Source: Betaproteobacteria bacterium
Lineage (GTDB): Bacteria > Pseudomonadota > Gammaproteobacteria > Burkholderiales > Casimicrobiaceae
Direction of reading: 5' to 3'
Assembly (NCBI GenBank): GCA_009778785.1
Contig: WRFN01000011.1
Coordinates: forward strand, 1-64,000
Length of the DNA: 64,000 bases
Below the pieces are notes generated by a model, which saw only the letters and a program-made list of their open reading frames with translations, did no database searches and was not told where the DNA came from. Below are positions 25,962-31,287 of this stretch, one piece after another; the stretch's first letter is position 1; the number at the start of each line of letters is the position of its first letter. The position numbers and the translations under genes were made by a program.

Positions 25962-27071
25962 TCAAAGCTCGAAATCGACCCGACCGACTTCGGTGGTGAC
26001 GAAACGCACGCGCGCCGTGACGCCGCACAGCAGTTGATAGGGAATCACGCCCGCCCAGTGCGCCACTTCTTCTACCGGCAAATCTTCGCCCCACAGCAAC
26101 ACCGGGCTGCCGACGCGCGCTTCGGGAATGTCGGTAATATCGACGGTGATCATGTCCATCGACACTCGCCCGGCAATCGTCGCCAGTTTTCCCGCCACCC
26201 GCACCGGCGTGCCGTTGCGCACGGTCATCGGGTAGCCGTCGGCGTAACCGCACGCGATCACACCGATGCGCGTGGGTCGTGTGGTTTTGTAAATGTCGCT
26301 GTATCCCACATACTCTCCTTCAGGGACATCGCGCACGGCAATCAGTTCTGAACGCAACGACATCACGGGCTGCAAATTCAGCGACGCCGCCGTTTGATTC
26401 GGAAAAGGCGAAACGCCGTAAAGCATCAGCCCCGGACGGACGATATCACCGCCGACATCGCCGTAACGCAAGACGCCCGCTGAGTTGGCAATCGAGCGCG
26501 GATACGGCAAGCCCTGACACGCTTCCCTGAAAATCGCCAGCGGCGCTTCGGCGCCCGCCTTGGTTTCCGCTTGCCCGAGGTGCGTCATCAAACGCAGCGC
26601 CGCCACTGCCGAAGACGCATTCAAGCGCTCGCACAGTTCGGCGGTTTCGTCCGGCTCCACGCCCAGACGATTCATGCCGGTGTTGATCTTCAGAAAAACT
26701 TCCAGCGACCGTTTCAACTCGGATTGTTCGAGCGCGGCAACTTGATCGCGGTGATGCACGACGATGGCGATTCGGTGTTGGGAAATTTCCTGCAATTCTT
26801 CTTGCGAGAAAAAACCTTCGAGCAACAACAAGCGTCGCGTGTAGTGCCGTTCCCGCAACGTGATGGCAGCGTCCAGTTCCATCAACGCCAAACCTTCCGC
26901 TTCGCCCAGCGCCGGCAATGCCCGCAGCAGCCCGTGCCCGTAGGCATTGGCTTTGACGACGGCCATGATTTGCGCGCCCTGAACACATTGACGGACACGA
27001 TCGAGGTTGTGACGTAATGCCGCCAGATTGATCTGGGCAACGAGTTGACGCGAGAGTGTAGGCATGGTCAT
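25962..27071 (-). CDS. alr: alanine racemase
   Basis: A 369-residue fold-type III PLP enzyme. The PLP Lys sits in AVVKANAYGHG (K40). Other features are NTGMNRLG, PGLMLYGVSPF, YADGYP and the second catalytic base region RVSMDMITVD. It makes D-Ala for peptidoglycan. ATG 27071 and ATG 27065 are both possible starts. The gene is followed on the same strand by hldD. Confidence 0.95.
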   Translation of the reverse strand: MTMPTLSRQLVAQINLAALRHNLDRVRQCVQGAQIMAVVKANAYGHGLLRALPALGEAEGLALMELDAAITLRERHYTRRLLLLEGFFSQEELQEISQHRIAIVVHHRDQVAALEQSELKRSLEVFLKINTGMNRLGVEPDETAELCERLNASSAVAALRLMTHLGQAETKAGAEAPLAIFREACQGLPYPRSIANSAGVLRYGDVGGDIVRPGLMLYGVSPFPNQTAASLNLQPVMSLRSELIAVRDVPEGEYVGYSDIYKTTRPTRIGVIACGYADGYPMTVRNGTPVRVAGKLATIAGRVSMDMITVDITDIPEARVGSPVLLWGEDLPVEEVAHWAGVIPYQLLCGVTARVRFVTTEVGRVDFEL

Positions 27072-27334: not shown

Positions 27335-27434
27335 AAAAAAAGAAAGCCCACCAGGAGGAGGTGGGCCAAAGGGGGTTCTTTTCAGCAGTGCTAAAGCGGA
27401 AAAAACATCAAAACATTTTTGCCGCTAAGTTACT
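27335..27434 (-). ncRNA. candidate GlrR/sigma-54-dependent small RNA (novel)
   Basis: A sigma-54 promoter (27446..27459) predicts a start near 27434, and a Rho-independent terminator ends at 27335, giving an RNA of about 100 nt. Hairpin 1 (27395..27426) pairs AGCGG-C-AAAAA with TTTTT-T-CCGCT around a 10-nt loop. A single-stranded linker with AAAAGAACCCCCUUUGG follows, then the terminator hairpin GCCCACC/GGTGGGC, whose seven-base loop is UCCUCCU. The UUUCUUUUUUU tail could bind Hfq. No open reading frame of note is inside. The loop complements Shine-Dalgarno sequences, so base-pairing regulation is likely. I see no sequence resemblance to GlmY or GlmZ. The call is inference from promoter, terminator and structure. 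Confidence 0.7.
27346..27366 (-). terminator. terminator of the candidate small RNA
   Basis: Minus-strand stem GCCCACC/GGTGGGC with loop TCCTCCT, followed by TTTCTTTTTTT (to 27335). Confidence 0.85.
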
Positions 27435-27445
27435 CTATTATACAA

Positions 27446-27459
27446 GCAGGAATCGTGCC
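27446..27459 (-). promoter_or_regulatory. sigma-54 promoter (-24 GG / -12 GC)
   Basis: The minus strand reads TTGGCACGATTCCTGCTTG, with GG and GC separated by exactly ten bases. This matches the TGGCACG-N4-TTGC consensus in nearly every informative position. It points toward the terminator at 27346, with no CDS between. Confidence 0.85.
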
Positions 27460-27489
27460 AAATATGAATTTATTTTAATTGTTTATTCT

Positions 27490-27502
27490 TTTCAACAAGT
27501 TA
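27490..27502 (+). promoter_or_regulatory. IHF-like site
   Basis: TTTCAACAAGTTA matches WATCAANNNNTTR with one mismatch. It lies between the sigma-54 promoter and the two upstream GlrR-like sites, where IHF bending is usual for bacterial enhancer-binding proteins. Confidence 0.5.
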
Positions 27503-27565: not shown

Positions 27566-27583
27566 TGTCTCTAAAAGAAGACG
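27566..27583. promoter_or_regulatory. GlrR-type activator site 1
   Basis: TGTCTCTAAAAGAAGACG matches TGTC-N10-GACA at seven of eight fixed positions. The central 16 bases (GTCTCTAAAAGAAGAC) are identical to site 2. It lies about 130-150 bp upstream of the predicted sRNA start. Confidence 0.7.
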
Positions 27584-27630
27584 GTTTCTATAAGTTTTAA
27601 CTCAACAGTGTGATATTTATACTTTTTTTG

Positions 27631-27648
27631 TGTCTCTAAAAGAAGACA
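27631..27648. promoter_or_regulatory. GlrR-type activator site 2
   Basis: TGTCTCTAAAAGAAGACA is a perfect TGTC-N10-GACA element, 65 bp from site 1 and about 200 bp upstream of the predicted start. The consensus is the one described for GlrR at enterobacterial glmY/glmZ. The glrR gene itself ends about 180 bp away. Confidence 0.75.
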
Positions 27649-27826: not shown

Positions 27827-29173
<1,347 letters not shown>

Positions 29174-29194: not shown

Positions 29195-29815
29195 TCACTT
29201 GGACGCGGCCTTGTTGGACGTTGTCTTTTTCGGCGGTGTTTTGGGCGCATCGGGGAGTTGCCCTGCCAACAATTGGCGATCCACATCCCGTAACGCTTCC
29301 AGCTTTTGCATCGCCCGCTGCTTTTCCTGTATCTGCAATTGCAAAACGCTCGCCAGATGCCGTAGCGTCGGCGGCGTTTTTTCGTTCTTCGCCACAGTGT
29401 CGAGCAGAGTTATCGCTCGCTGGTCGTTGACGCCGCCGGGTTGCAGTGACAACAAATACGCCAGCCGGATTCGGTTGCCGTTTCCGCCGCTTTGCCCCGC
29501 CGCCGAGATGCTGTTGTTCAACTCCGTTTGCGATGCCTTGATTTCCTCGGTGCTCAAGCGCGGATAGCGAGCCAAATCATCGAGCAATTTCTGAAACTCG
29601 CTCAACCGTTGCGTCAACAGCTTCATATCTTGCGCTGCCGCTGCTTCGCGCGCCGCCGCGAGACTCTCTTCCGACGGTTGTGCTGACGACGGCGCTTCGG
29701 TCACGGCAACCGGCGGCGTTTCCCCCTGCTCTGCTGATTCGGAAGTAGCCACACACCCGCTCACGAGCAATACCGCCAGCGCCAAATAATATTTTCGATT
29801 AAAAAACGACTTCAT
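29195..29815 (-). CDS. qseG: QseG-like outer membrane lipoprotein
   Basis: A 206-residue lipoprotein with lipobox LVSGC (Cys21) and an Ala/Glu-rich, mostly helical mature part; KAASK repeats mark the C-terminus. In enterobacteria QseG (YfhG) sits between glrK and glrR and contacts the kinase GlrK in the envelope. The track's longer start at 29884 is rejected: ATG 29815 overlaps the kinase stop by one base (TGATG) and begins a proper lipoprotein signal. Assignment relies on position and type; sequence similarity to QseG is weak to the eye. Confidence 0.8.
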   Translation of the reverse strand: MKSFFNRKYYLALAVLLVSGCVATSESAEQGETPPVAVTEAPSSAQPSEESLAAAREAAAAQDMKLLTQRLSEFQKLLDDLARYPRLSTEEIKASQTELNNSISAAGQSGGNGNRIRLAYLLSLQPGGVNDQRAITLLDTVAKNEKTPPTLRHLASVLQLQIQEKQRAMQKLEALRDVDRQLLAGQLPDAPKTPPKKTTSNKAASK

Positions 29816-31287
29816 CAAGAAACCCCTTCGATAGTTTTTTGTCTGCTGATAAGAGGCAGGGTACTGGTCCAAAACGGGAGCCACAAAATCAAACGCGCGC
29901 CGCTGCGGCCATCAGGCCTTTTTTCAGCAACGATGCGACCGCCGTGCGCCAACACGTACTCCCTGGCAATGGTTAGCCCCAACCCGGAACCTTTAATATG
30001 ATTCTCCGACGGCGGAGCGCCCTGAAAGAATGATTCAAAAATATGCTCACGCTCGCTCTCAGGAATCCCCGGACCTTCGTCGATGACTTCCAGTCGGGCA
30101 CAATCTTTATCAACGCCCATCGACAACCGGATTTTTCCCAGCCGTGGCGAATATTTTATGGCGTTAGAAACCAAATTGTCGATGATCGTCGTAATTTTTT
30201 TGGCGTTGCCGGTCACCAGCAACGGCAACAGTTTTTCCTCGAAAGAAATCAGCCGCGCCCACGCTGCCAGCCGGTGCTCACGAACGACATGATGAACGGT
30301 GTCGCTCAAATCCACCGGCAACAACACGTTGGGTTCCATCACCCGCGACTGGTGATACTGCAACAAGTCTTCGATCATCCGCTGCAACGACAGCGTGTTC
30401 TCACGGACGATGTGGACAATCTCGCGCTGCTCTTCTTTCAACTCGCCGCCGATGCCGTCACGTAACAACTCGGTGCCTTCGCGGATCGCCGTCAACGGCG
30501 TTTTCAGTTCGTGCGACATATTGCGCAAAAATTTCGTCTGCTGCTCTTCGAGCGTTTGCAACCGTGCCCGCAACCATTCGAGCCGTTGCCCCAGATAACG
30601 CAAATCCGAAGGTCCTTGTACCTCGATCTCTTTGGAGAAATCGGCGGCGCCCAGTTGTCGGATCGCCTGATCGATTTGTCGAACCGGGCGAGAAATCAAA
30701 AACGTCAGAAAGGCCGCCAGCAGAATGGCAATCACCAGCGCCGTCCACAACCATATCTGCCAATGTCGTCGCCCCGCGTCGGCGGTTTCCTTCAACTGAT
30801 CCACCGACGTCATCGCCACCGCGTAAGCAGTCTGTTGAACGGCCTGCGCGTCCGTCACAAAAGCGCGATAGCCGGCGATGATTTGCGTCGCGCCTTCCTT
30901 GTCACTCCTGTATTTCTGCAAAAGCTGAAAGAGTGTCGCCTCCTCCGCCACCGCATTCTGCAAAGAGTGATCCTTGTCCTCCGAAACCAGTTGCATCAAC
31001 TGCGCTTGCGTATCGGAAAACACTTCGCGCACTCGAATATAATCGTCGAGCACCGCGTGATCTTCGAGAATCGTGTATTGCCGCGCCAGACGCTCCAGCG
31101 ATCCCGCTTGTTCGAGAAACTGCCGTGATAGCCGCGCCACCGCCACCGAACTGTACACACTCTCCCGACTCTGCGACATCAACTCGTTGAGCGCCGCATT
31201 GAGCTTGTAGAGAGCGAAAAAGAGCGGCAGGCTGACCAAAAAGAAGCCCAAGATGATGAATTTGACTAATGAGCGCGGGTAATACAC
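29815..31287 (-). CDS. glrK: sensor histidine kinase GlrK (QseE)
   Basis: A 490-residue membrane kinase. TM1 (about 8-28), a helical periplasmic sensor domain (29-177), TM2 (178-198), HAMP (198-250), a HisKA domain with phospho-acceptor H259 in NMSHELKTPL, and an ATPase domain with N box (DNLVSNAIKYS), G1 box (DEGPGIP) and G2 box (KGSGLGLTIA) follow in order. It should phosphorylate GlrR in response to envelope signals transmitted through QseG. The start is GTG 31287. The gene heads the glrK-qseG-glrR operon and diverges from folA. Confidence 0.92.
   Translation of the reverse strand: MYYPRSLVKFIILGFFLVSLPLFFALYKLNAALNELMSQSRESVYSSVAVARLSRQFLEQAGSLERLARQYTILEDHAVLDDYIRVREVFSDTQAQLMQLVSEDKDHSLQNAVAEEATLFQLLQKYRSDKEGATQIIAGYRAFVTDAQAVQQTAYAVAMTSVDQLKETADAGRRHWQIWLWTALVIAILLAAFLTFLISRPVRQIDQAIRQLGAADFSKEIEVQGPSDLRYLGQRLEWLRARLQTLEEQQTKFLRNMSHELKTPLTAIREGTELLRDGIGGELKEEQREIVHIVRENTLSLQRMIEDLLQYHQSRVMEPNVLLPVDLSDTVHHVVREHRLAAWARLISFEEKLLPLLVTGNAKKITTIIDNLVSNAIKYSPRLGKIRLSMGVDKDCARLEVIDEGPGIPESEREHIFESFFQGAPPSENHIKGSGLGLTIAREYVLAHGGRIVAEKRPDGRSGARLILWLPFWTSTLPLISRQKTIEGVS

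Follow-up and report, generated by a model that had tools for sequence, protein, structure and literature searches.

Paired sites downstream of glrR in a Casimicrobiaceae genome: a putative GlrR (QseF) enhancer whose target seems to differ in kind between genera

Introduction

GlrR (QseF) is a conserved envelope-sensing regulator; among its small-RNA targets, GlmY and GlmZ of Enterobacteriaceae are known best. The Escherichia coli glmY promoter is a known GlrR/IHF-controlled promoter (PMC6075780, PMC8745638, PMC4585118), which QseF and IHF activate from three upstream activating sequences, or UASs (PMC6075780). The GlrR consensus is TGTCN10GACA (PMC8745638). The qseEGF cluster also occurs outside Enterobacteriaceae, in Betaproteobacteria, and its QseG component diverges strongly (PMC12691602). 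A literature search gave no account of the targets of this cluster outside Enterobacteriaceae. A second system of relevance is ccaF1-CcsR1-4 of Rhodobacter sphaeroides, in which the 3' UTR of a small-protein mRNA contains sRNAs (PMC8625941).

Here we describe a locus in a stretch of 64,000 nucleotides (the window) from a genome of the family Casimicrobiaceae. Scanned in the same way as the window, the region upstream of E. coli glmY showed three TGTC-N10-GACA sites without mismatch, at -230, -197, and -134. The IHF consensus occurs in exact form between the second and third of these, a further IHF-like sequence follows closer to the promoter, and the sigma-54 promoter TGGCAC-N5-CTGCA lies at -27.

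A pair of GlrR-type sites at fixed spacing

The 16-mer GTCTCTAAAAGAAGAC has exactly two copies in the window, at positions 27567-27582 and 27632-27647. No further copy with up to two mismatches was found there, for a chance expectation of 0.02. Extended to 18-mers, the copies read TGTCTCTAAAAGAAGACG and TGTCTCTAAAAGAAGACA, with one and zero mismatches to TGTC-N10-GACA, respectively, and a start-to-start distance of 65 bp. The distal putative UAS (27631-27648) is a perfect palindrome, while the proximal one (27566-27583) matches 7/8 positions and has a CGTC arm in the transcribed orientation. Measured from the predicted start (around 27434), they are some 132-214 bp upstream, and the interval from 100 to 250 bp upstream of that start holds at least two sites of the TGTC-N10-GACA or TGTN12ACA type. 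A preliminary description of this DNA had reported a 16-base element repeated 65 bp apart, once perfect and once a 7/8 match, 130-215 bp upstream of the start and with an IHF-like site between the copies. All of this is borne out.

On their own, such sites are frequent: allowing one mismatch, the window has 32 of them where 20 are expected, and the 2.1-Mb genome has 43 perfect ones. Hence, a lone TGTC-N10-GACA site is no proof, and the significance rests on the pair at its 65-bp spacing. The genome-wide motif scan suggested in the preliminary description found this pair, at the exact spacing and with one mismatch allowed over all 16 fixed bases, in just one place. The same search across 64 genomes of the family returned one match each in 43 (window genome included), and a control with the reversed pattern returned zero, save 2 matches in one genome.

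We then tabulated 32 loci. In relatives, the cores of the pair have changed (e.g., TGTCTCTTTTTGGAGACA and TGTCGCATTCGAGCGACA) and the palindrome arms have been kept. The two 16-mers of the window share an identical 10-bp core, while the two copies of each tabulated relative have differing cores; the identity in the window may stem from gene conversion or a recent duplication. The spacing is 64-66 bp across the tabulated loci and reaches 67 bp in additional loci described below. The sites had been called phased. The term is loose, since 65 bp amounts to about 6.2 helical turns. The spacing is strongly conserved, but the distance from repeat to promoter varies from 93 to 121 bp among the tabulated loci.

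IHF-like sites, sigma-54 promoter, and conservation

The IHF-like site between the UASs, TATCACACTGTTG (27603-27615, minus strand), has one mismatch to WATCAANNNNTTR and starts at offset 15 of the 47-bp spacer, an offset shared by most of the relatives' loci. With at most one mismatch, such a site is present in 22/32 loci, against a mean of 3.0 and a maximum of 7 in shuffled sequences. A second one, TTTCAACAAGTTA (27490-27502, plus strand, one mismatch), stands 29 bp upstream of the -24 element. A site between enhancer and promoter recurs, under the same threshold, in 19/32 loci (shuffles: mean 2.8, maximum 7). Both are assigned to IHF by sequence match.

The predicted sigma-54 promoter TGGCACGATTCCTGCT has -24 and -12 elements (27445-27460, minus strand), and RpoN is encoded in the window genome. 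We looked for a conserved sigma-70 promoter overlapping it and saw none: a TATAAT comes after it in the window, but has no good -35 at a spacing of 16-18 bp, and relatives lack it. Wherever the locus occurs in the genus (7 genomes), the -24/-12 promoter is kept. All seven (the window's included) also keep the repeat pair, so that we met no close relative with the promoter and without the repeats, the observation that would have spoken against the sites. The pair recurs downstream of glrR, and ahead of a -24/-12 promoter, in genus-mates as well as in other genera. This phylogenetic pattern makes the sites functional-looking. Three further members of the genus (G004, G008, and G009; loci L023, L027, and L024) have a more diverged glrR (66-72% identity) and lack both the repeat pair and the short unit beside it; their GlrR may have another role.

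The glrK-qseG-glrR neighbourhood and the choice of regulator

The minus strand reads, in order, a glrK-like gene, a qseG-like gene, glrR, the enhancer, the sigma-54 promoter, a short unit, a terminator, and the gene at 25962-27071, which we take to be an alanine racemase gene. The glrR (qseF) gene (27827-29173, minus strand) encodes an NtrC-family response regulator of 448 aa that shares 60% identity with E. coli GlrR and has an unchanged recognition-helix region (RNRTEFYKL). Its best family is NF011695 (GlrR), at 627.9 bits, yet below the curated cut-off of 763, and its best named GlrR matches are mostly betaproteobacterial. We regard it as an orthologue of GlrR with a matching helix. The glrK (qseE)-like sensor kinase gene (29815-31287, minus strand) encodes a protein that aligns with E. 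coli GlrK over 447 positions at 33% identity. Between the two, the qseG-like lipoprotein gene (29195-29818, minus strand; the longest ORF starts at 29884) was recognized by its position and its lipobox, MKSFFNRKYYLALAVLLVSGC..., as E. coli QseG and the window lipoprotein gave no sequence match. Hfq, RapZ, and GlmS are also encoded in the window genome.

The paired motif is not exclusive to GlrR and is common to other NtrC-type regulons. Exact TGTC-N10-GACA pairs 58-78 bp apart were found in 57/300 genomes of the order, some of them before glycosyltransferase-like or exopolysaccharide-type genes. Loci L184-L190 have TGTCG palindromes in pairs, spaced by 66 or 78 bp and in several cases with an IHF-like centre, together with sigma-54 promoters; these elements precede proteins that start with MNPNEHxHLSQSAQLAPSINRGSM or similar. 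We presume these proteins to be of the exopolysaccharide type, and the loci probably form a further regulon of the NtrC family that follows this enhancer grammar. Where glrR has a sigma-54 promoter beside it in other families of the order, that promoter drives glycine-zipper 2TM proteins (L044, L048), related-looking small envelope-type proteins (L042, L043), or a BON-domain protein (L051).

One may ask whether the pair in the window answers to a different NtrC-family sigma-54 activator that uses TGTCG/TGTCT palindromes, such as PrsR of exosortase/PEP-CTERM systems, and lies near glrR incidentally. Pairs with a similar spacing of 66-67 bp do precede exopolysaccharide-looking genes across the order, other families included, and the window genome has 14 places that match GlrR, so other activators exist. 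Yet the next best of these proteins is only 41% identical, the position next to glrR is retained in all family genera examined except g2, and the layout of E. coli glmY matches. PrsR itself we rejected: TIGR02915 is encoded neither in the window genome nor in its 10 genus-mates, and 3/12 other family genomes searched have one. Overall, control by a different activator seems quite unlikely.

The two repeats are therefore best read as a GlrR (QseF) enhancer, with a probability that we put at roughly 0.85. The putative binding sites had been proposed from their match to the enterobacterial consensus and from the enhancer layout typical of a sigma-54 activator. This proposal has support from several independent lines: glrR is adjacent, its recognition helix is unchanged, every promoter-bearing genome of the genus keeps the pair, the order of elements is that of glmY, RpoN is present, and PrsR, the single alternative regulator family that we considered, is absent.

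The short unit in the window's genus

The preliminary description had placed the sites upstream of an sRNA. In the window's genus, this holds in the form of a predicted unit without an ORF and with a terminator; in sister genera, the counterpart is a small-protein gene (see below). In the window, the predicted RNA (27335-27434, minus strand) is about 95 nt long, has no ORF of at least 20 codons, and folds with a z-score of -4.0. Its start was placed 12-13 nt past the -12 GC. It ends in a near-invariant 3' element (27335-27376, minus strand) composed of CCCCCUUU, the hairpin GGCCCACC-UCCUCCU-GGUGGGCU, and a U tract. The predicted intrinsic terminator covers 27335-27367 on the same strand, with the stem-loop at 27345-27367, and its loop is anti-Shine-Dalgarno-like. 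The 3' element, CCCCCUUUGGCCCACCUCCUCCUGGUGGGC plus the U tract (about 39 nt), is nearly identical in seven genomes of the genus, loop included. The rest of the unit is much less constrained: its length to the end of the U tract ranges from 100 to 209 nt, the body varies greatly, there is no conserved ORF, and conservation is seen only at the promoter and the 3' element. The window's RNA is without roughly 90 nt found in relatives. In the tabulation of loci, the terminator was trimmed too early for L012, L144, and L148.

Given the same regulator and enhancer layout, the unit could be a true homologue of GlmY/GlmZ acting with RapZ on glmS, both of which are encoded in the genome; moreover, relatives' RNAs of 180-209 nt come close to the 184 nt of GlmY. 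Against this, no match to the Rfam GlmY/GlmZ models was obtained at E<=10 for the window, nor at the gathering threshold for relatives, and the homology was rejected on these covariance models. The unit also has a different position, after glrR and not before glrK, and sister genera encode a protein from it. Pairing of the RNA with the glmS and alr leaders was no better than with shuffles, and direct pairing with either was likewise rejected. Hence, we find homology to GlmY/GlmZ very improbable.

A small protein in sister genera

In sister genera, the predicted transcript opens with an ORF of 48-57 aa with the consensus MDxFxPEFxxxWL...ALEELAERVxAARSV; in the listed loci, the ends read MDxFSPEF at the N-terminus and ALEELAERVxAARSIV at the C-terminus. 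In the pairs tested, dN/dS was 0.10-0.59. The protein matched no Pfam or NCBIfam family. The ORF is single-copy in 47/53 genomes of the family outside the window's genus, absent from all 11 genomes of that genus, and, in a sample of 150 genomes of the order, absent from every one outside the family. It lies behind paired GlrR-type sites in loci L008-L022, L140-L144, L148, and L202-L213. We also examined 13 extra small-ORF loci with enough upstream DNA, mostly picked because the strict pattern had missed them, and the pair was present at 65-67 bp in 12 of the 13.

The exception in position is genus g2, where the small-protein gene is away from glrR and nevertheless has the same pair, IHF-like sites, and promoter. 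Because this pair is unlinked to glrR and still precedes the same small-protein gene, the arrangement argues for a trans-acting regulator, and it is the strongest argument for sites that answer to one. The strict pattern maps to a different place in three g2 genomes (G066-G068), two of which have it ahead of a bactofilin gene, and the small-protein gene has a pair of its own. In loci L145 and L146 of this genus, the pair upstream of the bactofilin gene is of the GlrR type and has an IHF-like site at its centre; the small-protein gene is elsewhere. In other g2 loci (L140-L144, L148), a long hairpin with a UUUUCCUCCCCC loop stands between the small ORF and the terminator and is possibly a regulatory RNA of the 3' UTR.

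The 3' end of the sister-genus unit reads CCCCCUUGCCCGC...CCUCC...GCGGGC followed by a U tract. It looks homologous to the 3' element of the window's genus. The MAFFT alignment behind a cross-genus consensus fold did not bring the stems of both groups into register, and the presumed homology rests on the shared CCCCCUU, the CCUCC loop, and the position.

The absence of the ORF from 11/11 genus members raises the question of whether the short unit is a degenerating remnant of a decayed small-protein gene, with a promoter and terminator that have lost their function, a scenario compatible with GlrR sites upstream. The poorly conserved RNA body, its shortening in the window, and the three genus members devoid of the unit beside glrR would fit. 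However, the enhancer arms, the -24/-12 elements, and the 3' element are kept among genomes whose GlrR differs by 5-12%, while the neighbouring sequence is scrambled. Decay would not spare exactly these elements, and we therefore consider it unlikely. The best reading is that the enhancer once served a small-protein mRNA and now serves a non-coding RNA. That the mRNA lost its frame, kept enhancer, promoter, and 3' hairpin, and became a stand-alone regulatory RNA, i.e., a GlrR-controlled sRNA beyond GlmY/GlmZ and unrelated to them in sequence, is to us an even bet.

Discussion

From these features we infer a model that runs from GlrR binding and activation, through the transcript itself, to how the RNA acts and to a change that went from mRNA to sRNA. 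An envelope signal would be received by the GlrK/QseG-type sensor encoded in the adjacent genes, and phosphorylated GlrR would occupy both repeats. IHF would bend the DNA at the inter-repeat site and at the second site nearer the promoter, allowing the GlrR oligomer to reach sigma-54 RNA polymerase at TGGCAC-N5-CTGCT; the resulting open complex would yield a short transcript. Its sister-genus version would encode the 48-57 aa protein and then form the terminator hairpin with its CCUCC loop. In the window's genus, where the ORF is gone, the transcript would be a non-coding RNA of about 95-210 nt whose C-rich, anti-Shine-Dalgarno-like loop probably acts on the ribosome-binding sites of mRNAs. 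Since the CCUCC loop complements Shine-Dalgarno sequences, the RNA is probably a translational repressor, a point far less certain than the enhancer.

The enhancer grammar appears fixed (a UAS, IHF at a fixed offset, a UAS 65 bp on, a second IHF site, and sigma-54) and could be used to find GlrR targets elsewhere. The locus would also exemplify a retained switch that comes to drive a different kind of target. From the window and its relatives emerges an undescribed family of small proteins, restricted to this bacterial family in our sample. If our reading is true, they also allow the origin of an sRNA to be traced to a small-protein mRNA.

Among known systems, PrsR/exosortase-type regulons share paired TGTCG-type palindromes 66-67 bp apart before -24/-12 promoters, within the same bacterial order; that PrsR is the regulator of those palindromes is guessed from the genes downstream. 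They differ in their target genes and in their regulator, which the window genome does not have. The sister-genus unit resembles ccaF1-CcsR1-4 in that a small-protein gene and a C-rich hairpin 3' region follow one promoter. The hairpin loops of CcsR1-4 are C-rich, and presumably resemble that of the sister-genus unit. However, ccaF1-CcsR1-4 has another protein family, a promoter that is not of the GlrR/sigma-54 type, and four tandem sRNAs.

The closest system is glmY. The window shares with it the order UAS-IHF-UAS-IHF-sigma-54, with the UASs that flank IHF 63 bp apart in E. coli and 65 bp in the window, the -24/-12 promoter, a short RNA product (predicted in the window), and the linkage to glrK-qseG-glrR. 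The differences are that the window has two sites and E. coli three, that the RNA gene is downstream of glrR whereas glmY is upstream of glrK, that the window's RNA has no detectable similarity to GlmY, and that the unit of sister genera encodes a small protein. As the same scan recovers matching elements in E. coli, the layout of the window therefore follows the grammar of glmY, with two sites.
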